64,000 nt of DNA, taken from positions 62,001-126,000 of the IMG/VR virus record IMGVR_UViG_3300044701_003160. One strand, 5' to 3'. The DNA is from a virus. A model generated the notes under the pieces. The model saw only the letters and a list, made by a program, of their open reading frames with translations. It did no database searches and was not told the origin of the DNA. The position numbers and the translations under genes are program-made. Below are positions 28,970-50,842 of the stretch, piece after piece. Each line of letters begins with the position of its first letter. The stretch's first letter is position 1.

Positions 28970-29022
28970 ATTCAGGGGGACTGAATGGTTACAAGTATTC
29001 CCACGACACCCTCCATCGTGGG
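28970..29022 (-). other. two hairpins in the psbA 5' leader
   Basis: Reading leftward, CCCACGA pairs with TCGTGGG (29000-29022), then ATTCAG pairs with CTGAAT (28970-28986). Both lie between the promoter at 29113-29141 and the ATG. There is no T run, so they look like RNA stability or translation elements and not terminators. No Shine-Dalgarno is seen before psbA. Confidence 0.5.
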
Positions 29023-29112
29023 TATGAGGGATGCTTTACTTCTCGTGATCCCGGTTGGAGAAGATTCCGTAGGTAAGAAATTGTTACATTCCTTAACCCC
29101 GTGTATGTATAT

Positions 29113-34749: not shown

Positions 34750-34836
34750 TCAATAAGTTTCAGAAAGTTGATTGACAGAATGTGCAAGAAGCACGAAAAA
34801 AGAAATACTAGTTACAGTAAAAATGAGTTCGCTCAT
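34750..34836 (-). CDS. 28-residue membrane peptide between hli genes
   Basis: ATG overlaps the first hli stop (TAATG). A hydrophobic helix 'LIFTVTSISFFVLLAHSV' and a short polar end. Overlaps on one side and an operon with Hli proteins make it credible. It may act with the Hli proteins in the membrane. Confidence 0.55.
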   Translation of the reverse strand: MSELIFTVTSISFFVLLAHSVNQLSETY

Positions 34837-35045
34837 TAGATCACACCAAAGAAGAGGTGGCCTGTGAGTGCATAAGAAATAATTGCTGCAACGAATCCCA
34901 GCATCGCAGTACGGCCATTCAGTCGCTCTGCTCTTTCAGCATAAGTCTCAAGTGCATAACGCTCAGCATCAGTCTGAGAGATATACATCTGAGGTTCTTT
35001 GGCAAACATATTCTGCTGCCCACGCTCATTTGTTGTAACGGTCAT
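34836..35045 (-). CDS. hli: high-light-inducible protein, 69 residues
   Basis: C-terminal 'YAERAERLNGRTAMLGFVAA' is the Hli signature (E-x2-N-G-R-x2-M) with one helix; the N-terminal 30 residues are polar. First gene of the operon hli - membrane peptide - hli - peroxiredoxin. Driven by the promoter at 35073-35101. Confidence 0.9.
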   Translation of the reverse strand: MTVTTNERGQQNMFAKEPQMYISQTDAERYALETYAERAERLNGRTAMLGFVAAIISYALTGHLFFGVI

Positions 35046-35072: not shown

Positions 35073-35101
35073 ATTATATAGGAAAAATAAAGGGGCGTCA
35101 A
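35073..35101 (-). promoter_or_regulatory. hli promoter overlapping the pstS terminator
   Basis: TTGACG (35096-35101) and perfect TATAAT (35073-35078), spacer 17. The -35 box occupies the terminator loop and the spacer is its 3' arm and T run. Confidence 0.75.
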
Positions 35102-35108
35102 GCCCCTT
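35079..35108 (-). terminator. pstS terminator, composite with hli promoter
   Basis: Stem AAGGGGC with GCCCCTT, five-base loop (TTGAC reading leftward), then TATTTTT. Eleven bases beyond the pstS stop. Confidence 0.8.
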
Positions 35109-35118
35109 ATGTAAGAAT

Positions 35119-36084
35119 TTACTGACCGATACGCTTCACGGCAAGTCGTGATTTATTAAGAATGCTACCTGCAAGAGGAACATAACCCAAATCATCAGCA
35201 ATCATTTGTGCCTTTGCACTCAGAGCATAGTTGAGTGCCTGTTGAATATCACCTGCTTTCCTAGCACTATTACCAGTCTTATAGGCAAGAACCCAAGTCA
35301 GAGTGGAGATAGGATATGCACCAGAGGCAGAAGGATTGGGATTTTCACCAGCAAGATTTGCATCCAGTTTAATGGAGTTAAGAGCAATAGCACCAGACTT
35401 AGCAGTAGGAAGAACAAACTGCCCTGCCTTATTTTGAAGAGCAGCAACTTGCAGTTTGTTCGACTTCACAAATCCAGTATTTACATAACCAATTGAACCA
35501 GCAGTTTGGCGAATTGTTCCAGAGACACCTTCGTTTCCTTTACCACCAAGACCAACGGGCCAATTGACGGACTTACCTACACCAGGTTTCCAACCACCAA
35601 AAGCATCCAGAGAGTTAGTGAATGCAAAAGTAGTTCCAGAACCATCAGAACGATGAACAACAGTCATAGGACCTGCAGCACATCCAACTTGCTTCCAATC
35701 ACGGATACGACCTGAGAAAATATCCACAGTTTGCTTCTGAGTGAGTTTCAGAGAGCATCCTGCTTTGTTATAGGCAATCGCAATCGTTCCACCCACCATA
35801 GGGATTTGAACGACACCACGCTTCACTTTAGATGCCTCTTTTGACGAGATAGGTTCGTCAGTTGCTCCGAAGTCAACTGTACCCGCAACGAATTGACGGA
35901 CACCAGCACCAGAACCAACCGACTGGTAGTTTACACGATTTCCAGATGATTGTGCATAATCTTGGAACCAACGCTGATAGAGAGGTGCAGGAAAGGTTGC
36001 ACCAGCACCATTAATAGGGGGTCCGGCAATTGCCGCAACAGGAGCAGCAACTAGACCAGCAGCAATAAGGTTTTTAAGTTTCAT
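35119..36084 (-). CDS. pstS: phosphate-binding protein PstS
   Basis: 321 residues with a signal peptide of about 20 ('LIAAGLVAAPVAAIAG'). PstS marks: 'INGAGATFPAPLYQRWF', 'YQSVGSGAGVRQF', 'DFGATDEPIS', 'HRSDGSGTTFAFT', which together form the phosphate pocket. It works in the periplasm with the host PstCAB transporter. Several marine cyanophages carry it and use the host PhoB response; a Pho-box-like array is upstream. Neighbour is a porin, completing an uptake pair. Confidence 0.95.
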   Translation of the reverse strand: MKLKNLIAAGLVAAPVAAIAGPPINGAGATFPAPLYQRWFQDYAQSSGNRVNYQSVGSGAGVRQFVAGTVDFGATDEPISSKEASKVKRGVVQIPMVGGTIAIAYNKAGCSLKLTQKQTVDIFSGRIRDWKQVGCAAGPMTVVHRSDGSGTTFAFTNSLDAFGGWKPGVGKSVNWPVGLGGKGNEGVSGTIRQTAGSIGYVNTGFVKSNKLQVAALQNKAGQFVLPTAKSGAIALNSIKLDANLAGENPNPSASGAYPISTLTWVLAYKTGNSARKAGDIQQALNYALSAKAQMIADDLGYVPLAGSILNKSRLAVKRIGQ

Positions 36085-36120
36085 AAAAATTTGTTTAGAA
36101 GTGAAATAGACTTCTTAGAA

Positions 36121-36165
36121 ATCATAAGAGAAGATGAAAAATAAGTCCACTAAGATTTGGTTAAG
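36121..36165 (-). promoter_or_regulatory. Pho-box-type promoter of pstS
   Basis: Reading leftward, CTTAACCA (36158-36165), CTTAGTGG (36147-36154) and CTTATTTT (36138-36145) repeat at 11 and 9 bases, resembling the cyanobacterial Pho box repeat, followed 11 bases later by TATGAT as -10 (36121-36126). There is no usual -35. Only the first repeat is a close match. Confidence 0.5.
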
Positions 36166-36178
36166 AAGTTCATAACAT

Positions 36179-36206
36179 AAAAAAGCACCCAAAGAATGGG
36201 TGCTTT
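36179..36206 (-). terminator. porin gene terminator
   Basis: Stem GCACCC with GGGTGC (extended by AAA/TTT), seven-base loop, then six T reading leftward; 23 bases after the porin stop. Confidence 0.85.
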
Positions 36207-36228
36207 CACTCAGATTATGAGTAATTTA

Positions 36229-37710
36229 TCAGAAGGTGAACTTGGTCTGAACCACTCCACCCCAGGAAGATTCACCTCGGAACCTTTGGTCGTTGCTCAC
36301 ATAGAAGAGAGCAGGAGTGATGCTGATGTTATCAGATACACGATACTTATAGAAGATTTCAAGCATCGTGGCATCATCACCAATGAATTCAGAATTACCA
36401 GGTTGACCAACGGCAACACCAGCGGTATTACCTTGAGCAAATACATCAGACCACTGAAGTCCAACGAACCAAGAATCAGAATCGGTAGCACCAGTCTTAG
36501 AACCGTCACCACTTACACCATTGTAACCATAACCAGCTGAGATAGAAGGAACAAACCCACTCTCAGAAGGTTGCCAGTAAGCATTCAGAGCAACGCTATT
36601 GCTTTCCTGACCAGCAGCAAGGGCACCAGAACCGCCTCCAAGGGCATTAAAGGTACGAACACGACTGCCTTCAGTACCATAACGGTAAGCAACAGCAGCA
36701 CCCCACTGAGGAGCACGATAGCCAACCTGAGCAAGGAGGTTGATTCCAGAATCAGAGTTGAATGCACCTGTCTGAGAACTGTCACCATCTTGGGAAACAT
36801 AATTCAGACCAGCAACAAATCCACCTTGACCTTTCTTGGTGGGTTGCTTCCACTGAGCACCAACACCAGCACCAGTTGCCTTGTTATAAACACCAGAGGC
36901 ACCGCCAAGTTGGAAGAAGTCCAGGATTTCCGACTTATAAGCAGAAGGAACCCAAGCCATTTCCGTGTTACGAACCAGAGGACCAGCAGTCAGAGTTACA
37001 CTCTTACTAACTGGGAACTGATAGTAAAGACGGTCAATTGTAACCTGATCAGCAAGGGATTCTGCCTTATCAAGTTTGAACAGAGAAGAACTGGAACCAA
37101 AAGGATCGCTACTGAAGTTACCGGAACGCAGACGAGTGCGGAGCAGGTCCTTACCAGTGAACGAGGTATCAAAGTTCAGACGAACATCATAATTAAATGC
37201 AGTATTACCCACATCGACACCTTTGTTAGTTTCAAGACCAGGAACTCCACCAAGAACAAAGTTTACCTCACCCTTGAGTTTAGTTGTGGTGGAGAATTGT
37301 GTTGCTTCCAAGTTTCCAACACGATTTTCCAGACCATCAACACGACCCTTGAGTACGGCAAGTTCACTCTTGAATTCGTCCAGCAGTTTCCGAAGTTCAT
37401 CTGTAGTTTCAGTTACACGATCCAAGCAAGCATTCAGAAGAGCAGCTGCTTCATAACGGGTCATTGCCTGGCCACCAACAAAAGTGCCATTAGGATAACC
37501 AGCAACGCAACCATAACGCTCTACAAGATTGCTGAGTGCCTGATATGCCCAATCAGAAGGTTGAACATCAGTAAATTGTGTAATGCTAGTAACCTGGGCA
37601 GCAGAGGCATACTTGTTGACATCCTCAATATTGAGTTCTGCAGCATTCACCGCAGGAGCAACAAGACCCAGTGCAACAGGCACGAGCATCAGTTGTTTGA
37701 GAAAATTCAT
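36229..37710 (-). CDS. som: cyanobacterial-type porin with SLH domain (Som/OprB family)
   Basis: 493 residues with a signal peptide ('LMLVPVALGLVAPAVNA'). An SLH domain follows ('FTDVQPSDWAYQALSNLVERYGC', 'PNGTFVGGQAMTRYE'; parts shown), then a coiled coil at about 100-135 ('LRKLLDEFKSELAVLKGR'), then a beta barrel ending in 'GGVVQTKFTF' with a terminal Phe, needed for outer-membrane insertion. This is the plan of major porins of Synechococcus and Prochlorococcus. It would let small solutes, perhaps phosphate, into the periplasm. Clearly host-derived, intact. Confidence 0.92.
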   Translation of the reverse strand: MNFLKQLMLVPVALGLVAPAVNAAELNIEDVNKYASAAQVTSITQFTDVQPSDWAYQALSNLVERYGCVAGYPNGTFVGGQAMTRYEAAALLNACLDRVTETTDELRKLLDEFKSELAVLKGRVDGLENRVGNLEATQFSTTTKLKGEVNFVLGGVPGLETNKGVDVGNTAFNYDVRLNFDTSFTGKDLLRTRLRSGNFSSDPFGSSSSLFKLDKAESLADQVTIDRLYYQFPVSKSVTLTAGPLVRNTEMAWVPSAYKSEILDFFQLGGASGVYNKATGAGVGAQWKQPTKKGQGGFVAGLNYVSQDGDSSQTGAFNSDSGINLLAQVGYRAPQWGAAVAYRYGTEGSRVRTFNALGGGSGALAAGQESNSVALNAYWQPSESGFVPSISAGYGYNGVSGDGSKTGATDSDSWFVGLQWSDVFAQGNTAGVAVGQPGNSEFIGDDATMLEIFYKYRVSDNISITPALFYVSNDQRFRGESSWGGVVQTKFTF

Positions 37711-37773
37711 AAATGTGTTTTTTTGTTAAACGACAAGTGTTAAGAATTATAACTAATTCTCAACAACGTATTT

Positions 37774-37802
37774 AGTATAGTCGGTAACTTCAGTCTTGTC
37801 AA
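37774..37802 (-). promoter_or_regulatory. porin promoter
   Basis: TTGACA (37797-37802) and TATACT (37774-37779), spacer 17. The -35 box overlaps the stop of the GT25 gene. A CTAAATA late-type box overlaps the -10. Confidence 0.7.
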
Positions 37803-38593
37803 GTGCTTTGTTGAGAAGATGATTCCGATACTCTACCAAGGTATGGATTATACTCTGTAATTTGATCTATTGTCAATTCAGAACCTTTTTGAGACCAGAA
37901 CCCAAGTATTGCATCGTGACTATTTTTATGAAAAACATCTATATGTTCAGGATGAATTGAAGAACCAAGTTCAATCTTATAAAGGAATAACGGAGTTGCA
38001 TAAGTTACTCCTGAATTGTAAATCAAATCATCAGCAACTGGTCTTGGTTTAACTCCATTATCCAGTTTATACTTATCTCCACGAATATGATTCCTAATAA
38101 GTTTTTCTGCATGATGCCTAGTAATTACATAACAAGCAGTTGAAAAATCATTTACAAATCTTGTATGAACTGGAACATGAATATCTCCAGTACAAATGAT
38201 TGCAAGTTGAATTACATCCCAAGCATAAGGAGCTCTTGCAATAAAATCCTGCCAAGCAAAATTCCAATATCTTGCAATATCAATATTGCAATCATCTTCC
38301 ATAATAATTGCATAAGGACTATCAGAAGTCTCATACCAGTATTTGATTGCCTTAAGATGAGATGTTACACAACCAATTTCACCAGAGCTCATCATATCAG
38401 GATACTTACCTTTGATAATACCACTTAGATCATCTTCACGACCATCATATGCAGAGATACGTGTATAATTTTCAAGTTCCCAATACTTAAATTGATCCTC
38501 CATATATTGTTTTCTTTCTGGTTGTCCGTCCAGATTGAGATAATATATTGGACCAAAGTTTTTAAGTTTATATACTGATTTATTTTTATCCAT
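37799..38593 (-). CDS. GT25-family glycosyltransferase
   Basis: 264 residues. 'YYLNLDGQPERKQYM' at the start, 'GEIGCVTSHLKAIKYWYE' and 'AIIMEDDCNID' (D-x-D-like site) are hallmarks of the LPS-type GT25 family. It transfers a sugar (often galactose) to a glycan. Last gene of the glycan cluster; overlaps the upstream GT4 gene by 8 bases. Confidence 0.85.
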   Translation of the reverse strand: MDKNKSVYKLKNFGPIYYLNLDGQPERKQYMEDQFKYWELENYTRISAYDGREDDLSGIIKGKYPDMMSSGEIGCVTSHLKAIKYWYETSDSPYAIIMEDDCNIDIARYWNFAWQDFIARAPYAWDVIQLAIICTGDIHVPVHTRFVNDFSTACYVITRHHAEKLIRNHIRGDKYKLDNGVKPRPVADDLIYNSGVTYATPLFLYKIELGSSIHPEHIDVFHKNSHDAILGFWSQKGSELTIDQITEYNPYLGRVSESSSQQST

Positions 38594-39530
38594 CGATAAC
38601 TTGCTGAATATTTGGCAGATAGTAATTTTCTAACATTCTACACCATTCAAACTCTTTTGCATAGTTAATAATTTCTTGACGATTGTTTATGGAATATTTT
38701 CTATTTTCAGATATAACATTTTCTACAAATTTTATATCATTAATTTTTTCTTCAGGTATAACACTAATAAATTTATTATTTAAATCCAAATTAGCAGTTG
38801 CCCATTCACTTACAACAACACCAAGGCCCGCAGAAAATGCTTCAAGACAAACTAATGGATGTGCCTCACCATCAGAAAGTAAGATAAGATTTGCATATTG
38901 AGTTAATTTTTTATGAACATCATCTTTAGACCATTCGCCAAGATAATTTTTTTTAACATCAAATCTAGCGTCAGCAATATTTCCAGCATACCAAACAGAT
39001 TCAATATCCTGAAAAAGAAATTGACGTTTTCTATAATCTATTTTTGCAAGATAGATTGATCTATCAGGATAAGTTGGTTTATCGGTTATTTCAAATAATT
39101 TACAGTTAACTCCATTTGGATTTAAATAGAGTCTTTCATCTGGAATATCAGCAAGGTCTTTATAAATTTTATTAATTCCTACAGACAACCCAAAGACATT
39201 TGGTTTAATTCTAGAGAAATGATCAAATACTCTTTCCTTATAACCACCCATTAATTCGGGTCGTTCAATATAAGCAAAGTGCGTAGTGACTGCACAAGGA
39301 TACTGAATAAATTCATAGATTGGAACCCAATCATCATAATTAATATGAACAAAATCAGGACGAAATTGGTTAATCATATTGATAATTTGATAGGGATCAC
39401 CAATATTAATAATTTGAACTTCATGACCCATTTCTTCTAAGGTCATTTTCATATCCCAAATTAAACTTTCAACAGCACCCCACCCAATTGGAGGAATAGG
39501 AAGTGCTGGTCCAATAATACTAATTCGCAT
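38586..39530 (-). CDS. GT4-like glycosyltransferase A
   Basis: 314 residues. GT-B layout: Gly-rich N-terminus 'GPALPIPPIGWGAVESLIW', then 'DFVHINYDDW' and 'AVTTHFAYIERPE', and late 'ILLSDGEAHPLVCLEAFSAG' with the Glu of the E-x7-E motif. Sequence and motif order are shared with the next gene, so the two are paralogues. Overlap of 11 bases with it. Confidence 0.82.
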   Translation of the reverse strand: MRISIIGPALPIPPIGWGAVESLIWDMKMTLEEMGHEVQIINIGDPYQIINMINQFRPDFVHINYDDWVPIYEFIQYPCAVTTHFAYIERPELMGGYKERVFDHFSRIKPNVFGLSVGINKIYKDLADIPDERLYLNPNGVNCKLFEITDKPTYPDRSIYLAKIDYRKRQFLFQDIESVWYAGNIADARFDVKKNYLGEWSKDDVHKKLTQYANLILLSDGEAHPLVCLEAFSAGLGVVVSEWATANLDLNNKFISVIPEEKINDIKFVENVISENRKYSINNRQEIINYAKEFEWCRMLENYYLPNIQQVIDG

Positions 39531-40497
39531 TTGCTTCTAATTTTTCAATATTTTCAGCATATAATTTTACAAGACTTTCCCAAGAAAAATTATCAATTGC
39601 AAATTCACGAATTTCATCTCTCATACTCACAGATATCTCACGATTTTCTTTAATCTTTTCCTCAACATAAGAAATATCTTCAAGTTTATCATCAGGAATT
39701 ACTGTTACAAATGGTAACCCTTCTGGGAGATCATGTGCAGCATATTTTGAAATTACCACACCTAGTCCATTTACCATTGCTTCTTTCACAACCAAAGGCG
39801 TTCCATTTTCTCCATCAGAAAGAAGAACGAGATTACCATAATCAGTAAAATGTTCTCTCTTATATTCGTCACTCCATTCTCCAAGATAATTAATACTTGG
39901 GTCAAATGCGGTGGCACCAGTATTTTGCCCGACATAATCAATCGAATCAATTGATTGATACAACCATTGTTTTTTTCTATGATAAATTTGACCCAAATAC
40001 AGAGAACGATCTGGTTTTACTGCATCGGTTCGATAAGTAAATCTCTTATGATTTGCACCATTTTCAGAAAGAAGTAATCTACTTTCATCAGCACCTGCGT
40101 TTTTAAATGTATTAAAATCTTTTTTGGAGATGCAGAAGATATAATATTTTTTATTATTAATAATCCAATCAAAAGTGCGATCATAACCATCGCGGCGGTG
40201 CATATGTGGTTGATCAATATATGGATAATGACTACTAATAGCTAATTTTGAAATATTAGTTTCTTCGGATATCATATCCATAATTGGATGGAATACATCA
40301 TAATGAAGATGAGCGAATTCATAATTATCTTCATTCAAATATTTAATAATTTCATCCCAATTAGGAGTATTAATAATAGTACCTTCATGACCCAACTCAT
40401 CAAGTTCTAGTGCATAGTCCCAAATTAAACTTTCGACAGCACCCCAACCATCAGGAGGAATAGGCATAATCCCAGGGCCAATCAACGCTAATTTCAT
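39520..40497 (-). CDS. GT4-like glycosyltransferase B
   Basis: 325 residues, paralogue of the previous enzyme: 'GPGIMPIPPDGWGAVESLIW', 'FAHLHYDVFHP', 'LSENGANHKRF', 'NLVLLSDGENGTPLVVKEAM'. The two probably arose by duplication and add successive sugars. Start abuts the stop of the upstream gene. Confidence 0.82.
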   Translation of the reverse strand: MKLALIGPGIMPIPPDGWGAVESLIWDYALELDELGHEGTIINTPNWDEIIKYLNEDNYEFAHLHYDVFHPIMDMISEETNISKLAISSHYPYIDQPHMHRRDGYDRTFDWIINNKKYYIFCISKKDFNTFKNAGADESRLLLSENGANHKRFTYRTDAVKPDRSLYLGQIYHRKKQWLYQSIDSIDYVGQNTGATAFDPSINYLGEWSDEYKREHFTDYGNLVLLSDGENGTPLVVKEAMVNGLGVVISKYAAHDLPEGLPFVTVIPDDKLEDISYVEEKIKENREISVSMRDEIREFAIDNFSWESLVKLYAENIEKLEANAN

Positions 40498-41225
40498 CAG
40501 TAAAGCTCCTTATACGCATGAACAAGTGCAAAGTCAGTATTACGAAAATTTGGAGTTTTCCAAACTTCTGTTAAATTGGTATTAATTGAATATTCTTTAC
40601 CCAAAATAAAATATACAATTTGCATATACAAGTCTAACCAACCAAATCTATAATCAAGAAATTTTAAAATATAATCAAAATCATAATCAATAAAATCATA
40701 AATTGTATGATAATTATCAAGAAATGTATTGATATTGTATATACTACCACCACCAGCACCATACCAGTCCACGTTAGGATTGGCATTGTATTTTGCTTTA
40801 ATATACTGAAGTAGACTTGGTTCTATTTTATTTCCTGGAACATCAAATCCTGCACATTCCCAAGTAGGATCAATCTTAACCTCTTTTTGAGTTAAAACAT
40901 CATCTTCCATCATAATCATATGACTTCCTCCCTGAGATTTCACATATCTTGCTGCTTCTCTAAACATATGAATCCAATGAAGACTCTCATCTTTAGTAAA
41001 TCCATAAACTCCTGATGGGTGTCCAGAATTTCTACGTCCAATTCTCATATAAGAATGAACGTAATTACAATTATATTTTTCAGCAAGATCAGAATAATCT
41101 ACTCCACCATCACAACAAATAGTATATGGTTCATTCGGATGAAATTTTCTAAATTCTTGAAGAATAAATTCTGTAGCTCTCTTATTTTCATAGACGGTAT
41201 GAAAACAACCAAATTTTGTACTCAT
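40497..41225 (-). CDS. putative glycosyltransferase
   Basis: 242 residues from ATG at 41225 (ATGA overlap with upstream stop). An 'MIMMEDDVLT' acidic motif at about 105 and a nucleotide-sugar-like N-terminus ('TICCDGGVDYSDLAEKY') suggest a GT-A fold enzyme. 'HPSGVYGFTKDESLHWI' and Trp/Tyr-rich end. Family number not recognised. Confidence 0.65.
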   Translation of the reverse strand: MSTKFGCFHTVYENKRATEFILQEFRKFHPNEPYTICCDGGVDYSDLAEKYNCNYVHSYMRIGRRNSGHPSGVYGFTKDESLHWIHMFREAARYVKSQGGSHMIMMEDDVLTQKEVKIDPTWECAGFDVPGNKIEPSLLQYIKAKYNANPNVDWYGAGGGSIYNINTFLDNYHTIYDFIDYDFDYILKFLDYRFGWLDLYMQIVYFILGKEYSINTNLTEVWKTPNFRNTDFALVHAYKELY

Positions 41226-41986
41226 GAATCTTTCAAATAATGTGGATGAATGTCGTCGCGATATAACCAAAACCAGTGAGGTTCTCCTGGTGGAGTAGGT
41301 TGTACATCAGGTATCATATCTTTGAAGTCGTAACTAAAAGGTGGATTATAAAAACTAAAAACAGATGGGTCTTTCATACCTATCCATTTTTCAAAATTCA
41401 TTCTTTCAATAGGCCCAAAGTCTTGCGATTCTCTTTGAAATGCCTGTTTAGTTGGATGTTGAAGGGTTGAAATATAATCTGCTCTTGCCCACCAAAAATT
41501 GCCACTCATATGTGGCCATGGATCTAGGCAATAATTAACTCCAGATACTTGATAGTGATCTAGTTTATCTAGATTTTCTTTCCATTTGTCAATACAACCC
41601 CACTCCATGAGGTGTCTCCAACTATTTATTGCCCTCACTTTACGATCAGAGTAATGATCTCGCACACCACACATATGACTAATACCTTTAGTGTGAAAGT
41701 ACATTACCTTATGGGCCCGATCATTTACACAATCTTCATAAAGATGCTTAAGTGTAAATCCTTCATACTCATCATCATTGTCCCTACAATCAATGATATC
41801 AATCCAGTCATACAAAGAAACAAATTGTTTAATCCTAGAAGCTTGTGGTCCATTGATAGCACATTTTATGGTTGCAATATCAGTTAACCCACTTCTATAA
41901 AGTCTTTTTATTTGCTCATCAATTAAAATTTTCCACAAGTCAGTATCCGCAGGAGACCAAATGTGATAATAAATATTAACTCTCAT
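41222..41986 (-). CDS. putative glycosyltransferase, 'HTKG' type
   Basis: 254 residues. 'VMYFHTKGISHMCGVRDHY' and 'HMSGNFWWARADYISTL' are a pattern seen in uncharacterised glycosyltransferases of marine viruses and bacteria. N-terminal 'MRVNIYYHIW'. Part of the overlapping glycan operon; substrate unknown. Confidence 0.65.
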   Translation of the reverse strand: MRVNIYYHIWSPADTDLWKILIDEQIKRLYRSGLTDIATIKCAINGPQASRIKQFVSLYDWIDIIDCRDNDDEYEGFTLKHLYEDCVNDRAHKVMYFHTKGISHMCGVRDHYSDRKVRAINSWRHLMEWGCIDKWKENLDKLDHYQVSGVNYCLDPWPHMSGNFWWARADYISTLQHPTKQAFQRESQDFGPIERMNFEKWIGMKDPSVFSFYNPPFSYDFKDMIPDVQPTPPGEPHWFWLYRDDIHPHYLKDS

Positions 41987-41987
41987 A

Positions 41988-42719
41988 TTACCATTGATTA
42001 TTGTCTAGTGATTTATTGTCCTTAGCAAGATGAACCATTTTTTTCTCAAAATTACAATACTGCTCAAATAACTGAGGATATGCAAAAGAAGGGGACAAAG
42101 TATGTACTTCATCTTTATGAGATAAAAACCAACGATTCATATAACTCTCTTCATAATATCTCGCTTGAATACTTTTGTCAAGATCATCCTTAGTCCATTT
42201 ATCTATTTGCTCCATCATATCAAATATTGCAGGAACTTTTCCTCCCCACAAACATCCTTGATAGTACACAGACATATTCATAATATCTTCATCAATACAA
42301 GAGTTGGACAGTGGATTTACGTCGAAAGATCCTGGATATTGATTGTGGGGAGGGAATTCAAGAAAGTGACAAGGATGATGAACTCCAAAATATTTTTTTG
42401 TATCATCAAAAAATTCAGAGTAATTTATATCACACCAAGCATAAAGATCTGCATCAACAGAAATTAACCAGTCATAACCAACTACTTTATTCTTTAACTT
42501 TAACATTTCTTCAAAAGTTTTATGATAGGTAGTCGGAAATCCATAATGAGGTATTTCTATTTTGACTATATTGTCAGGTGATCCTTCCAAATCACCATCA
42601 GTAAAAACAAAATAAGTTTTCTCAATATCAGGTACAAAATAAGTTTCAAGTCTTTCATACCATTTAGGAAGAAACTCAATATATTTTTGTGTGCCCCAAA
42701 AAGTTACTGCAATTTTCAT
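41988..42719 (-). CDS. GT6-family glycosyltransferase
   Basis: 243 residues from ATG at 42719, overlapping the upstream stop (ATGA). GT6 motifs: 'IAVTFWGTQKYIEFLPKWYE', 'LISVDADLYAWCD' (metal-binding DAD), 'YYQGCLWGG' and 'YEESYMNRWFLSHK' as in the ABO-type enzymes. A GT6 member is known from cyanophage P-SSM2. It would add alpha-linked Gal or GalNAc. Confidence 0.85.
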   Translation of the reverse strand: MKIAVTFWGTQKYIEFLPKWYERLETYFVPDIEKTYFVFTDGDLEGSPDNIVKIEIPHYGFPTTYHKTFEEMLKLKNKVVGYDWLISVDADLYAWCDINYSEFFDDTKKYFGVHHPCHFLEFPPHNQYPGSFDVNPLSNSCIDEDIMNMSVYYQGCLWGGKVPAIFDMMEQIDKWTKDDLDKSIQARYYEESYMNRWFLSHKDEVHTLSPSFAYPQLFEQYCNFEKKMVHLAKDNKSLDNNQW

Positions 42720-43501
42720 TTTAAAATATGCTGTGGTTGCCAATCAAAATACTTTCTAACTTTAGAATTTTCAATATGCAAATATGTTTTTTCTGCCTTT
42801 TGATTCAGTTTAAGGTTTAATGTGCCACGTTTTGACACAATATCTATTATATCAAGAATAGTTATACTTTGCCTTCCAACCAAAAATAATTCATGTTGCT
42901 TATTTAAATCAGTAGATACTACCTTGAATAAAAGATTAACAAAATCATCAATATGAACTAGATCTATTCTTGTTTTGAGATTTGCAAAAATTTCCACAAT
43001 TTGATTGGTATTCACAGAGTTTAAAAGTTTATCAACTAATCCATTAACTCTATCTTTTTTTACCTTTGCTCCCCAAATATTCGATGTCCTAAGAACAACT
43101 GTATTGCAACTAAGTTCTTTTAACATATTTTCAACATGCAACTTACATTCACCATATAAAGAATGTGGAGAGGGCTCAAATTCTTCAAATACTGTTCTTT
43201 CCTTCCCAAGATGCAAATCTCCAGCAGATGAAACAAAAATTATTTTTCCATTTGGATTTTTATTTACGTAGTAATCAAATAGAGTTTTACTATTTGACAC
43301 ATCATTTTTTATAACTTTTTGAAATTCATCATAATTATTTCTAGTAGTAGAAGACCAGGCAAGATGAATTAAACAAGATTCTTCATGACAATCAAAAATA
43401 TCAGAAACTTCATCTCGATAAGAAATTGTCGTAACTTTTTTATCACAAAGTTCCAAAAATCTACTACCAATTAATCCACTAGAGCCACTAAGATATATCA
43501 T
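42716..43501 (-). CDS. NAD-dependent epimerase/reductase (SDR)
   Basis: 261 residues. Extended SDR: 'LSGSSGLIGSRF' (G-x2-G-x2-G), 'CLIHLAWSS', 'FVSSAGDLH', active-site 'SLYGECKLHVENM' (Y-x3-K), 'DLVHIDDFV'. Substrate unknown; may make or modify a nucleotide sugar such as GDP-fucose (its neighbour is a fucosyltransferase-like enzyme). ATGA overlaps on both sides. Confidence 0.8.
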   Translation of the reverse strand: MIYLSGSSGLIGSRFLELCDKKVTTISYRDEVSDIFDCHEESCLIHLAWSSTTRNNYDEFQKVIKNDVSNSKTLFDYYVNKNPNGKIIFVSSAGDLHLGKERTVFEEFEPSPHSLYGECKLHVENMLKELSCNTVVLRTSNIWGAKVKKDRVNGLVDKLLNSVNTNQIVEIFANLKTRIDLVHIDDFVNLLFKVVSTDLNKQHELFLVGRQSITILDIIDIVSKRGTLNLKLNQKAEKTYLHIENSKVRKYFDWQPQHILK

Positions 43502-44319
43502 TTAATTATTATCCATTCTTTTGGAATTAAATCAGACGTATCTAAATGTGCATTATTTTTCCCAAACCATTTTTGGGGGTCAGGAGCACAAACCGTTTTA
43601 TTAATACTTTTAGATAACCAAGCACCCCACCAAGAAAAAGTGGAGTTTGCAATAATAAAGTCAGTACACAAATTCATTAAACAAAGATCAGTATAACTAT
43701 CGTTTCCTTCCGATACAAGAAACCTGTCAGATTCAAATAAAGATTGTTCTTTACACCATTCAGGATCATCCGAAAAGATAATCACAATTCTATCATTATC
43801 AAACTTTTGTAGAGCGGCATCATAATAATCAAGACCAAGATTTGTGTGATTTGCAGAATTAATTAAAAAATCTCCACGACGAACGTGAAGTGCAATTGGT
43901 CTATCAACTTCACTCATTTTATGTTTACAAAGAAATGAGATTTCGTTTTTGAATGTAAAATCTTGGCGGATTTCATCTTCAATATGCTTGAAGTATTTTT
44001 CTGTTTGAAAATATCCTTGAAGATTAACCCAATCTGGACAATCATCAAAAAGTTTTTTGTCAAAATTAAAATTATCTTCAACAATAGTTGGTCTATCTTG
44101 GTCTATTACTTGAATGTTTAATTGAGTAACATTTGACATTAAAAATGTATCAAAAAGTTCAATTCTAAGTTTATTCTCAAAACTATCAATAACAACTTCA
44201 TTATGATAAGGAATACAAAAATTATATCCTCTATTTTTAGCAATTCCGCGAAGAGAGGCATATTGGAACATTTGATTTCCAAGTTGACCCATTTTTCCCA
44301 AATAATTAAATCCTATCAT
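43498..44319 (-). CDS. GT11-family alpha-1,2-fucosyltransferase-like
   Basis: 273 residues. 'GKMGQLGNQMFQYASLRGIA', 'ALHVRRGDFL' (the GDP-fucose-binding H-x-R-x-G-D motif) and 'IANSTFSWWGAWLS' are GT11 signatures. It would add fucose from GDP-fucose. Start follows the next upstream gene by 12 bases. Confidence 0.88.
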   Translation of the reverse strand: MIGFNYLGKMGQLGNQMFQYASLRGIAKNRGYNFCIPYHNEVVIDSFENKLRIELFDTFLMSNVTQLNIQVIDQDRPTIVEDNFNFDKKLFDDCPDWVNLQGYFQTEKYFKHIEDEIRQDFTFKNEISFLCKHKMSEVDRPIALHVRRGDFLINSANHTNLGLDYYDAALQKFDNDRIVIIFSDDPEWCKEQSLFESDRFLVSEGNDSYTDLCLMNLCTDFIIANSTFSWWGAWLSKSINKTVCAPDPQKWFGKNNAHLDTSDLIPKEWIIIK

Positions 44320-44331
44320 TTTAAATAATAA

Positions 44332-45099
44332 TTATAAATTTCTAACATACTCTCGTATTGGACTATTGTAATTATACTCCACTCGGTGAATTATGTAAAT
44401 CTCTTCCTTAGATTGATTGCCAAAATATAAATGGCATAGAGAACTAATATTCCCGTCTAAAAATTTTTTAATTTCATCAAAATTTTGATAGTTATTGCAA
44501 GAAGAGTTTGTTGGATAATTTTTTATTTTTTTTGCAAATTTTAAAATACAAGAAGGTATTACAACTTCTTCAGGAACCCAACCAGTATTATTATATAAAT
44601 TATTATCATTTTGGATGAAATCAAACATTTTCATAGAAACATTTTTACTACAAGTTAGACCTTCAACTAAATTTTTAACAACGCCTTTAGGAAATTTGGA
44701 TGTAGAATTTTCTATGATTGGAGTAGATTCCCAATGAAATTCGTGCAAACTAATAAATCCATCAGCATCTTTTAAATATTCTTCAATGCCACGTTTAATA
44801 AAAAGCATTTGTGAATAAAAAATCATATGATAGTCAAATTTAATTTTTAGATCATTAACAACATAATTAAAGTTTGAGCAAAGAGGGTGGATAAAACTAC
44901 CACCCTTATATGTAAAAAATCTTTCTGGATTTATATAAACATTTTCTATATTTGAAAATCTGTCTTGATCAAAATCTTCAAATACTTTACTCACATGTAA
45001 GCAAATTACAGGATTTTTAACAAATTTTTTGATGTTAAAAATCATATCCTCCACTATATTATTATCAGTATGAACTAAACAATTAAAAAATATTTTCAT
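44332..45099 (-). CDS. unassigned glycan-cluster protein
   Basis: 255 residues. A beta/alpha start 'MKIFFNCLVHTDNNI', 'VICLHVSKVF' and 'FISLHEFHWESTP' recall the core of GT14-like glycosyltransferases, but no clear catalytic motif is visible. High Asn, Lys and Ile content fits the AT-rich cluster. Role in glycan synthesis is inferred from place. Confidence 0.6.
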   Translation of the reverse strand: MKIFFNCLVHTDNNIVEDMIFNIKKFVKNPVICLHVSKVFEDFDQDRFSNIENVYINPERFFTYKGGSFIHPLCSNFNYVVNDLKIKFDYHMIFYSQMLFIKRGIEEYLKDADGFISLHEFHWESTPIIENSTSKFPKGVVKNLVEGLTCSKNVSMKMFDFIQNDNNLYNNTGWVPEEVVIPSCILKFAKKIKNYPTNSSCNNYQNFDEIKKFLDGNISSLCHLYFGNQSKEEIYIIHRVEYNYNSPIREYVRNL

Positions 45100-45115
45100 A
45101 CAAAATTGTCAGATA

Positions 45116-45769
45116 TCAAATATTAAATTTTTCCTTAATTTCTTCTATAAGATCAGAATTATTTGATGCAACACCAAGCCCAGCAGAATTTGTAAAATTG
45201 ACTTTAGGAACTTCTAATTGAGAAAAGAAAACTCCAACACCATCAGGATTTGAAATAGTATCGTGAAAAATAATTACACCATTTTCTTTCAGGAATGGTG
45301 ACCAAGTATCACAATCATTTTTACAATTTTCATAATCATGAAGTCCATCAATATGTAAAAGATCTATTTCTTTATCCCACTCTTTTGCAACATCATCAAA
45401 ATAACCTTTAATAATTTCAAGATTATCTAACTTTAATTTATTCTTAACATCCAACACAAATTGATAGTCTTCATCTATCCTAATACCATGCTTTGTATTA
45501 TCAAAACAATCAATACCATAAACTTTCCCTTTATTGTTTAGAGACATTAAGAATGAAGAATATCCATAATCAACTCCAAGTTCAACCGTAACTTGAGGAT
45601 CAATTTTTTCAATCAACCAAGATACAAATTCGTTGTGACTCTTTGGAGGAACATTCCATGCGGATGGAATTGCACCCAAAATTTCACTCACATTATCATC
45701 ATCAAGGGAAAGAACATATTCTCTCCAATTATCTCTTTTATTTTCACACCAAGAAAAATTTTCAATCAT
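45116..45769 (-). CDS. class I SAM-dependent methyltransferase
   Basis: 217 residues. SAM-binding 'VELGVDYGYSSFLM' (motif I), 'VYGIDCFD', and 'DLLHIDGLHDYENCKNDC' with 'GVIIFHDT' are typical of the Methyltransf_24 group, often in glycan clusters. It may methylate a sugar. Overlaps the epimerase gene start by 8 bases. Confidence 0.82.
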   Translation of the reverse strand: MIENFSWCENKRDNWREYVLSLDDDNVSEILGAIPSAWNVPPKSHNEFVSWLIEKIDPQVTVELGVDYGYSSFLMSLNNKGKVYGIDCFDNTKHGIRIDEDYQFVLDVKNKLKLDNLEIIKGYFDDVAKEWDKEIDLLHIDGLHDYENCKNDCDTWSPFLKENGVIIFHDTISNPDGVGVFFSQLEVPKVNFTNSAGLGVASNNSDLIEEIKEKFNI

Positions 45770-46805
45770 TTATTTGCTCCTTAATCCAATTGTAAGTTTT
45801 TTTAATACCTTCTTCAAGACTCTGAGAATAATCCCAACCAAGTTCTTTGCGAATCAAATCATTATTAGAATTACGCCCACGAACACCGAGAGGTCCCTCA
45901 ATATGATTCTTTTCTACTTGTTTGTTAGCAACTTTAGCAGTAGTATCTACAAGTTGATTGATAGTGACCATTTCTTCTGACCCAATATTTATTGGTCCAA
46001 TAAAATCTGAATCCATCATTCTACGGGTTGCTTCGATACATTCGTCAATATACAAGAAGGAACGAGTTTGTAAACCATCTCCCCACACATCGATGGTTCC
46101 ACCTTCCTCTGGAAGATATGCGACTTTACGGCAGATTGCAGCTGGAGATTTTTCTCTTCCACCTTCCCAGGTTCCTTCGGGTCCAAAGATATTATGATAC
46201 CTAACAACCCGAACAGGGATCCCGTAATTACGATGATAAGCGAAAAACAATCGTTCTGAAAAGAGTTTCTCCCATCCATATTCACTATCGGGTGCTGCGG
46301 GATATGCGGATTCTTCACGACAATCAGGATTATCAGGATCTAATTGATTGTGTTCTGGATACATACAAGCAGAACTGGAGTAAAAGATTTTGGTCTTGTT
46401 GACTTCTTTAAAGTCATTCAGTTGTCGCTGTGCCTCAAGAACATTCAGATTAATGGTTGCAGAGTTGTGCATGATGTCTGCATCATTCACACCAGTAAAA
46501 ACGAATCCTGCACCACCCATATCAGCAGCAAACTGATAGATCTCATCAAAAGTATCAATATATCTGGATGGAACAAAATTATAGAAGTTTTGATAAGGAC
46601 CTTTATATTGAAGAACTCTTTCTACAAAGTTAGCATCACGAAGATCTCCAAGAACAAATTCATGTGCTTGGCTCATAGAAAATTCAGGATACTTAAGATC
46701 AACACCACGAACCCAGTATCCTTCGGATCGCAGTCGTTTTACCATATGACTACCAATAAATCCACCAGCACCAAGAACAAGTGCTGTTTTTTTATACTCA
46801 CTCAT
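45762..46805 (-). CDS. GDP-mannose 3,5-epimerase-like protein
   Basis: 347 residues. 'ALVLGAGGFIGSHMVKRL', 'AADMGGAGFVFTGVNDADIM', 'SSACMYPEHNQ', 'YGWEKLFSERLF' (Y-x3-K), 'FGPEGTWEGGREKSPAAICR' match the plant and bacterial GDP-mannose 3,5-epimerase family strongly (parts shown). It turns GDP-mannose into GDP-galactose-type sugars. Some homologues act on other NDP-sugars. Confidence 0.82.
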   Translation of the reverse strand: MSEYKKTALVLGAGGFIGSHMVKRLRSEGYWVRGVDLKYPEFSMSQAHEFVLGDLRDANFVERVLQYKGPYQNFYNFVPSRYIDTFDEIYQFAADMGGAGFVFTGVNDADIMHNSATINLNVLEAQRQLNDFKEVNKTKIFYSSSACMYPEHNQLDPDNPDCREESAYPAAPDSEYGWEKLFSERLFFAYHRNYGIPVRVVRYHNIFGPEGTWEGGREKSPAAICRKVAYLPEEGGTIDVWGDGLQTRSFLYIDECIEATRRMMDSDFIGPINIGSEEMVTINQLVDTTAKVANKQVEKNHIEGPLGVRGRNSNNDLIRKELGWDYSQSLEEGIKKTYNWIKEQIND

Positions 46806-50642: not shown

Positions 50643-50842
50643 AGGGTCTTTTAGGCTCGCCACCAATTCTTTGACTGGAAATTGGAAACCAGGCGGGAGT
50701 AAGATCCCATCCGCACCACCAATCCTTGAGAGAGATTGGAAACTCATAATAGGGTCATATTGACTCCACCAGTACTTTTAGAGTCTCTCCGTGACTAAAG
50801 GGGTTCATCACCGACCAGGGCTAGTTTTAAGTCATACCGGGA
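50643..50842 (-). other. non-coding region with three diverged repeats, possible RNA
   Basis: 200 bases with no supported frame. On the plus strand three units each start with CCACCA followed by a T-rich spot (near 50660, 50716 and 50767); the first two each form a stem (CCAATT with AATTGG, CCAAT with ATTGG) and are followed by GGAAAC-type sequence. A strong terminator closes it in the leftward direction. Could be a 3' leader or a small structured RNA. Confidence 0.4.

Follow-up and report, generated by a model that had tools for sequence, protein, structure and literature searches.

Discussion of cyanophage phosphate genes is mostly confined to the inner membrane (pstS, phoA). In the marine cyanophage cassettes (P-SSM2, S-SM1, and others; PMC3037559), pstS is of host origin, is preceded by a gene for a Phage_OMP protein, and is sometimes followed by phoA. 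The pstS gene of P-SSM2 is controlled by host PhoBR, and predicted phage Pho boxes are not always functional (PMC10976474). At the outer membrane, diffusion through Pi-specific porins has been proposed to limit the entry of Pi into Synechococcus (PMC7250820). Prochlorococcus PhoE (PMM0709; PMC5451487, PMC3349580) is a picocyanobacterial OprB-family porin that is induced 10-700 fold by phosphate starvation (PMC5451487). A full-length porin (QPX48248.1) is also encoded by the lytic cyanomyovirus S-SRM01, a freshwater isolate from Serangoon Reservoir, and goes unmentioned in its isolation paper. We found no description of a cyanophage porin-pstS cassette or of escape from the small RNA Yfr1 in the open-access literature searched.

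The locus described here is real and varies the phosphate cassette known from cyanophages. Its pstS is likewise of host origin, but it is preceded by a full porin, which the marine cassettes lack. Like Prochlorococcus PhoE, the porin belongs to the OprB family; unlike PhoE, it is on a phage, has a phage promoter, and lacks a Yfr1 site. The S-SRM01 porin is 72% identical to it, but that phage has no pstS. Taking all evidence together, we think that the locus is probably a cassette for phosphate uptake in a T4-like cyanophage of the freshwater type.

The porin and PstS proteins

The window, i.e., the whole 64,000-nucleotide stretch analyzed, covers bases 62001-126000 of the 219,018-base virus contig IMGVR_UViG_3300044701_003160, and its gene content is that of a T4-like cyanophage. 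On the minus strand, the order of transcription is glycosyltransferase, porin, pstS, and hli (Table 1). A run of glycosyltransferase and other sugar-related genes adjoins the cassette (window 37799-46805, minus strand). In many related contigs (L021, L044, L207, and others), the porin is instead immediately preceded by a tRNA-like sequence, so the sites of the cassette differ between phages. Elsewhere in the window, all on the minus strand, we observed two group I introns (RF00028; 27491-28067) in the psbA region upstream of psbD, a match to the abortive-infection-associated abiF RNA (RF03085; 55519-55555) adjoining a tRNA cluster, and wcaG and PhotoRC-II cis-regulatory RNAs (50649-50747 and 28987-29076, respectively). 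According to the S-SRM01 paper, psbA is also split in that phage.

Table 1 Features of the porin-pstS locus in window coordinates.
Feature	Position	Strand	Remarks
Glycosyltransferase	37799-38593	-	Directly before the porin in transcription order
Porin promoter	37774-37802	-	TTGACA-17-TATACT (11 of 12), running into CTAAATA; late-promoter-like; layout conserved in related phages
Porin leader	37711-37735	-	TGTCGTTTAACAAAAAAACACATTT; abuts the start codon; without the Yfr1 target GTGTGAGGA
SLH-OprB outer-membrane porin	36229-37710	-	493 aa; intact ORF
Intrinsic terminator hairpin after porin	36181-36207	-	Separates porin from pstS
Pho box before pstS	36151-36165	-	CTTAACCAAATCTTA; 5' end 81 nt upstream of the start codon
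pstS	35119-36084	-	321 aa; signal peptide; periplasmic phosphate-binding protein; intact ORF
Intrinsic terminator hairpin after pstS	35090-35108	-
hli	34836-35045	-	After pstS

The first-pass annotation had described a complete host-type SLH porin next to pstS, and the intact tandem reading frames and the Pfam and NCBIfam scores confirm this. The porin has a signal peptide, one SLH domain (residues 46-89), a coiled coil, and a predicted 16-strand barrel (142-492). Pfam detected OprB (1.9e-15) and one SLH domain (5.1e-9), with 57.6 and 36.4 bits against curated cut-offs of 22.9 and 20.8, and NCBIfam detected 'por_somb' (NF033921) with 302 bits (cut-off 100). The name of this NCBIfam family, 'iron uptake porin', counts against the phosphate reading. 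No PHROGs family matched the window porin. An AlphaFold2 model built with 39 relatives (mean pLDDT 74; barrel mostly 80-95, SLH domain and coil low) contained 16 strands and a 31-residue loop (248-278) between strands 5 and 6, which we take to be the place of the L3 constriction loop of general porins. The top matches in the PDB included the SLH-tethered OmpM1, OprB, and two phosphate porins, OprP and OprO. The best match, OmpM1 of Veillonella parvula (8bym, 8byt), is likewise an SLH-tethered outer-membrane porin, but it is a cellular attachment porin of diderm Firmicutes and is only 15% identical to the phage porin. Both the domain scores and the predicted barrel with its constriction loop fit a cyanobacterial SLH-OprB porin. 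There was no sign of lost channel function, as the barrel, SLH domain, and signal peptide are all kept; the first-pass annotation had named, as overturning its reading, a porin that groups with phage-only proteins lacking this function.

The second protein matched PBP_like_2 in Pfam (3.4e-42) and TIGR00975 in NCBIfam (276 bits, cut-off 205), and its best solved relatives are the PstS chains 7xg8 and 7xg7. It is 36% identical to E. coli PstS and keeps the motifs in which the E. coli protein contacts phosphate (GATFP, the D of FGATD, and R-DGSGT). The family score and contact motifs together point to a PstS phosphate-binding protein. PstS is proposed to use the host PstCAB pump because no PF00528 permease was found on the record and the only ABC-subunit match there was weak, partial, and below the cut-off, in a 576-codon frame.

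Measured against the window genes, dN/dS values were 0.12-0.27 (porin) and 0.12-0.19 (pstS), which indicates purifying selection on both. This bears on the idea that the SLH porin stabilizes or loosens the link between outer membrane and peptidoglycan before lysis. SLH/OprB proteins influence outer-membrane stability in Synechocystis (PMC8707739), and lysis-type genes (C39 peptidase, lysozyme) are located within 3-4 kb. However, the whole protein including the barrel is under purifying selection, though the SLH domain alone would suffice for such a role, and contigs differ in where the porin lies with respect to the lysis genes. We regard a lysis function as highly improbable.

With regard to a role in phosphate uptake, five basic residues, K212 and K215 in loop L2, K259 in L3, R350 in L5, and R332, were conserved across the phage porins and the host porins linked to pstS, whereas they were rare among the remaining host porins (4-20%). 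In E. coli PhoE, one L3 lysine confers anion selectivity, and the clade-specific K259 resembles this lysine without proving the same preference. Acidic gains in the same clade equal the basic gains (5 and 5), so the basic residues are a lead only. The net charge of the barrel was rejected as proof of anion selectivity, as it is about neutral and as the acidic gains match the basic ones. The basic residues fit a phosphate-stress porin like Prochlorococcus PhoE, and the channel may conduct phosphate.

The loops also inform on whether the porin alters the cell surface, by superinfection exclusion or receptor replacement. Phage-coded porins with such a role are known: the Lc porin of the lambdoid phage PA-2 is likewise a phage-coded outer-membrane porin and acts in receptor exclusion, but it is enterobacterial, comes from a lysogenic phage, and has neither an SLH domain nor pstS. 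In the window, the glycosyltransferase cluster adjoining the porin gene and the variable outer loops L1, L4, and L6-L8 would fit a surface role. By contrast, conservation of L2, L3, and L5 was 0.80, 0.88, and 0.74 in phage porins versus 0.49, 0.63, and 0.34 in other host porins, the opposite of what a decoy under diversifying pressure would show, and a surface change leaves the linkage to pstS unaccounted for. A surface role therefore appears improbable to us.

Origin of the porin and its linkage to pstS

We compared the phage genes with 151 Cyanobiaceae genomes, from which the host porins were drawn as best matches and thus form a non-random sample. In many of these genomes (for example G078, G126, G004, G051, G144, and G087), the best host relatives of the porin immediately precede pstS in the same orientation, and one Cyanobiaceae genome (G001) had the arrangement porin-pstS-porin. 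Prochlorococcus PMM0709 presumably also lies next to pstS, judging from the consecutive locus tags. In the phylogenetic tree, the phage porins formed one clade (100/99) inside a clade with the pstS-linked host porins (100/100). Among host porins with enough flanking sequence, 9 of 17 inside the clade adjoined pstS compared with 3 of 47 outside it (Fisher p=1.3e-4). No strict Pho box was found upstream of the host porins, so regulation was left out in defining the host phosphate-porin clade. The window porin falls within the pstS-linked clade, as would a PhoE-like phosphate-stress porin, and its place in a phage-only clade indicates that it is not a recent host copy. The host kinship assumed by the first-pass annotation holds for the enclosing clade, while the porin itself groups with phage sequences only, so that one half of the outcome named as overturning that reading is seen, but not the loss of function.

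The main clade of freshwater phage pstS was separate from two marine phage groups, and an origin of the window pstS from marine cyanophage pstS was rejected for this reason. Two contigs (L044 and L046) carry a different pstS, which grouped (98) with pstS genes that hosts carry in porin-pstS pairs and again follows a phage porin. These trees and contigs suggest that pstS has been lost and gained repeatedly beside a stable porin.

Among isolate genomes, a full porin was found only in the freshwater cyanomyovirus S-SRM01; S-CREM1 and S-PM2 encode short proteins matching mainly the SLH end. IMG/VR contained 403 candidate stretches coding a porin relative. The contigs are partly redundant, so the following counts are of contigs and not of independent events. 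Among 80 contigs with pstS, 73 had enough upstream DNA, and 72 of these 73 had a porin upstream, 65 directly and 7 at about 1.4 kb. The remaining contig (L237) had a Phage_OMP barrel instead of the porin. In some freshwater-type contigs, an S-adenosylhomocysteine hydrolase gene lies between porin and pstS (2664-3917 in L231). In the reverse direction, among 80 contigs with a porin, pstS was the next gene in 29 and farther on in 1, and 11 were too short; of the 69 contigs with either pstS or a downstream stretch of 1.5 kb or more, 39 had a porin without pstS. Searching 20 records over their whole length revealed pstS in 8, at places already known beside the porin, and no pstS was found on the complete S-SRM01 genome (240,842 bases). 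The 'pair' of the earlier description is upheld starting from pstS but not starting from the porin.

The many contigs that have a porin but no pstS, and S-SRM01 likewise, would suit a general or iron-uptake porin that eases any small-ion limit during infection, with the adjacency to pstS reflecting a shared site for host-derived genes. The NCBIfam name and the constitutive-type promoter are in line with this, and Synechocystis SLH/OprB porins account for about 80% of inorganic ion uptake, with Slr1908 linked to iron (PMC8707739). However, the nearest host porins of the phage clade are those beside pstS, the clade-specific L3 lysine is ill-suited to cations, and pstS without a porin is practically absent in these contigs. 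We consider a general or iron-uptake porin rather unlikely and favor phosphate uptake.

Promoters, Pho boxes, and the Yfr1 site

The first-pass annotation had given each gene its own promoter and terminator, in agreement with the porin promoter, the pstS Pho box, and the two terminator hairpins that we found. Promoter-like matches over 4 kb were not enriched (9 versus 8.5 +/- 2.6 in shuffles) and CTTAN7CTTA alone was not rare in the window (3 versus 3.2 expected), so the promoter and Pho box are credible because of their position and conservation rather than match frequency. A conserved promoter, TTGAC-N17-TA..(C/A)TAAATA, in which a sigma-70 site merges with a motif of the late type, recurs upstream of phage porins. 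The Pho box CTTAACCAAATCTTAGTGGACTT was present upstream of phage pstS in 53 of 63 distinct upstream regions (0.5 expected). The window porin had no strict Pho box upstream, and a Pho box as the rule of porin control in phages was rejected, as only 9 of 85 phage porins had one. Its absence counts against a 'Pho-regulated porin' but not against phosphate conduction. By its conserved Pho box, the cyanophage pstS would be of the PhoB-controlled type, with PhoB binding there. Judging from these motifs, control is split between pstS, with a Pho box for host PhoB, and the porin, with a sigma-70/late-like promoter. The earlier interpretation is strengthened with respect to origin and linkage and corrected with respect to strict pairing and shared control.

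Yfr1 is a small RNA present in nearly all cyanobacteria. Porin mRNAs interact with it in Prochlorococcus, and in Nostoc it represses genes for outer-membrane proteins (PMC6974561). Each of the 13 hosts tested had a Yfr1 gene with an intact loop ACTCCTCACAC, and no phage-coded Yfr1 was found in 5 phage records. In roughly two out of three host porin leaders, the Yfr1 complement GTGTGAGGA overlaps the ribosome-binding site, in most cases 11-15 nt ahead of the start codon. A stretch of 8 nt or more of GTGTGAGGA was present in 49 of 75 host porin leaders (about 0.5 expected), a set in which two rows, L084 and L085, are really phage, and in 10 of 13 leaders of the pstS-linked set. L085 (CALGUV010000018.1) has a phage-clade porin on a contig binned to an uncultured Microbacteriaceae MAG and is probably a wrongly binned phage contig. 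Within the last 25 nt before the ORF, the 9-mer was found for 29 of 85 host porin ORFs compared with 0 of 683 other host ORFs; this count took each frame to start at its first ATG, so some host porin starts are misplaced.

None of the 85 phage porin leaders had 8 nt of the Yfr1 site. For host leaders, the duplex with Yfr1 had median energies of -19.3 and -16.0 kcal/mol (-6.4 and -6.7 after shuffling), and for phage leaders of -1.2 and -1.4 kcal/mol (-1.3 and -1.1 after shuffling). Either the phages were selected for escape or the gene lost its leader on coming under a phage promoter, and with either cause the porin is predicted to be non-repressible by Yfr1. The missing site may be a mere by-product of replacing the whole leader. 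Based on the leader sequences, the phage porins would escape Yfr1 in infected cells, and this freedom from Yfr1 is the newest part of our findings. It suggests that phages rewrite host genes and evade host small-RNA control. As the site is absent from 85 of 85 phage leaders, phosphate entry into the dying cell may be kept up. In five contigs (L212, L216, L233, L251, and L259), we observed a conserved porin leader in which two potential hairpins (GGAGTTATGTCGAAACTCC and CGCAGGTAAACTCTGCG) immediately precede the start codon.

Proposed uptake across two membranes and the marine counterpart

We propose that the porin was acquired long ago from Cyanobiaceae porins beside host pstS. It would insert in the outer membrane, with the SLH domain tethering it to peptidoglycan, and let phosphate enter the periplasm, where phage PstS would bind it and pass it to host PstCAB. 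The porin would be made from its phage-type sigma-70/late-like promoter whatever the phosphate state, from an mRNA without the Yfr1 site through which porin translation is held back in hosts, while host PhoB would activate pstS under phosphate stress only. Both barriers named by the first-pass annotation would be served, in an arrangement mirroring the host porin-pstS cassette and with a phosphate selectivity that we infer. A widespread phage porin tied to pstS brings the outer membrane into viral phosphate uptake.

In 8 of 8 sampled marine cyanophages, a small protein (DUF680, unnamed, or an unannotated homologue) was encoded directly before pstS. It belongs to the Pfam family Phage_OMP (PF24653), a cyanophage outer-membrane-like barrel, and takes the position held by the porin in the window phage. 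A Pho box of the same form as that of the window phage (CTTAACCTTCTCTTAG; P-SSM2 and P-SSM7) precedes the barrel-pstS unit. The small marine protein could be read as an outer-membrane partner of PstS. With Phage_OMP before marine pstS and a porin in the freshwater type, the rule may be a barrel plus PstS. More tentatively, a deregulated copy of a host porin, without a Yfr1 site and behind a phage promoter, and a general coupling of cyanophage pstS to a barrel could together make up a two-barrier viral phosphate uptake. A search for Phage_OMP elsewhere on the window record gave no match, as in the control genomes. Three freshwater-type contigs (L213, L070, and L247) had a Phage_OMP-type gene near pstS.
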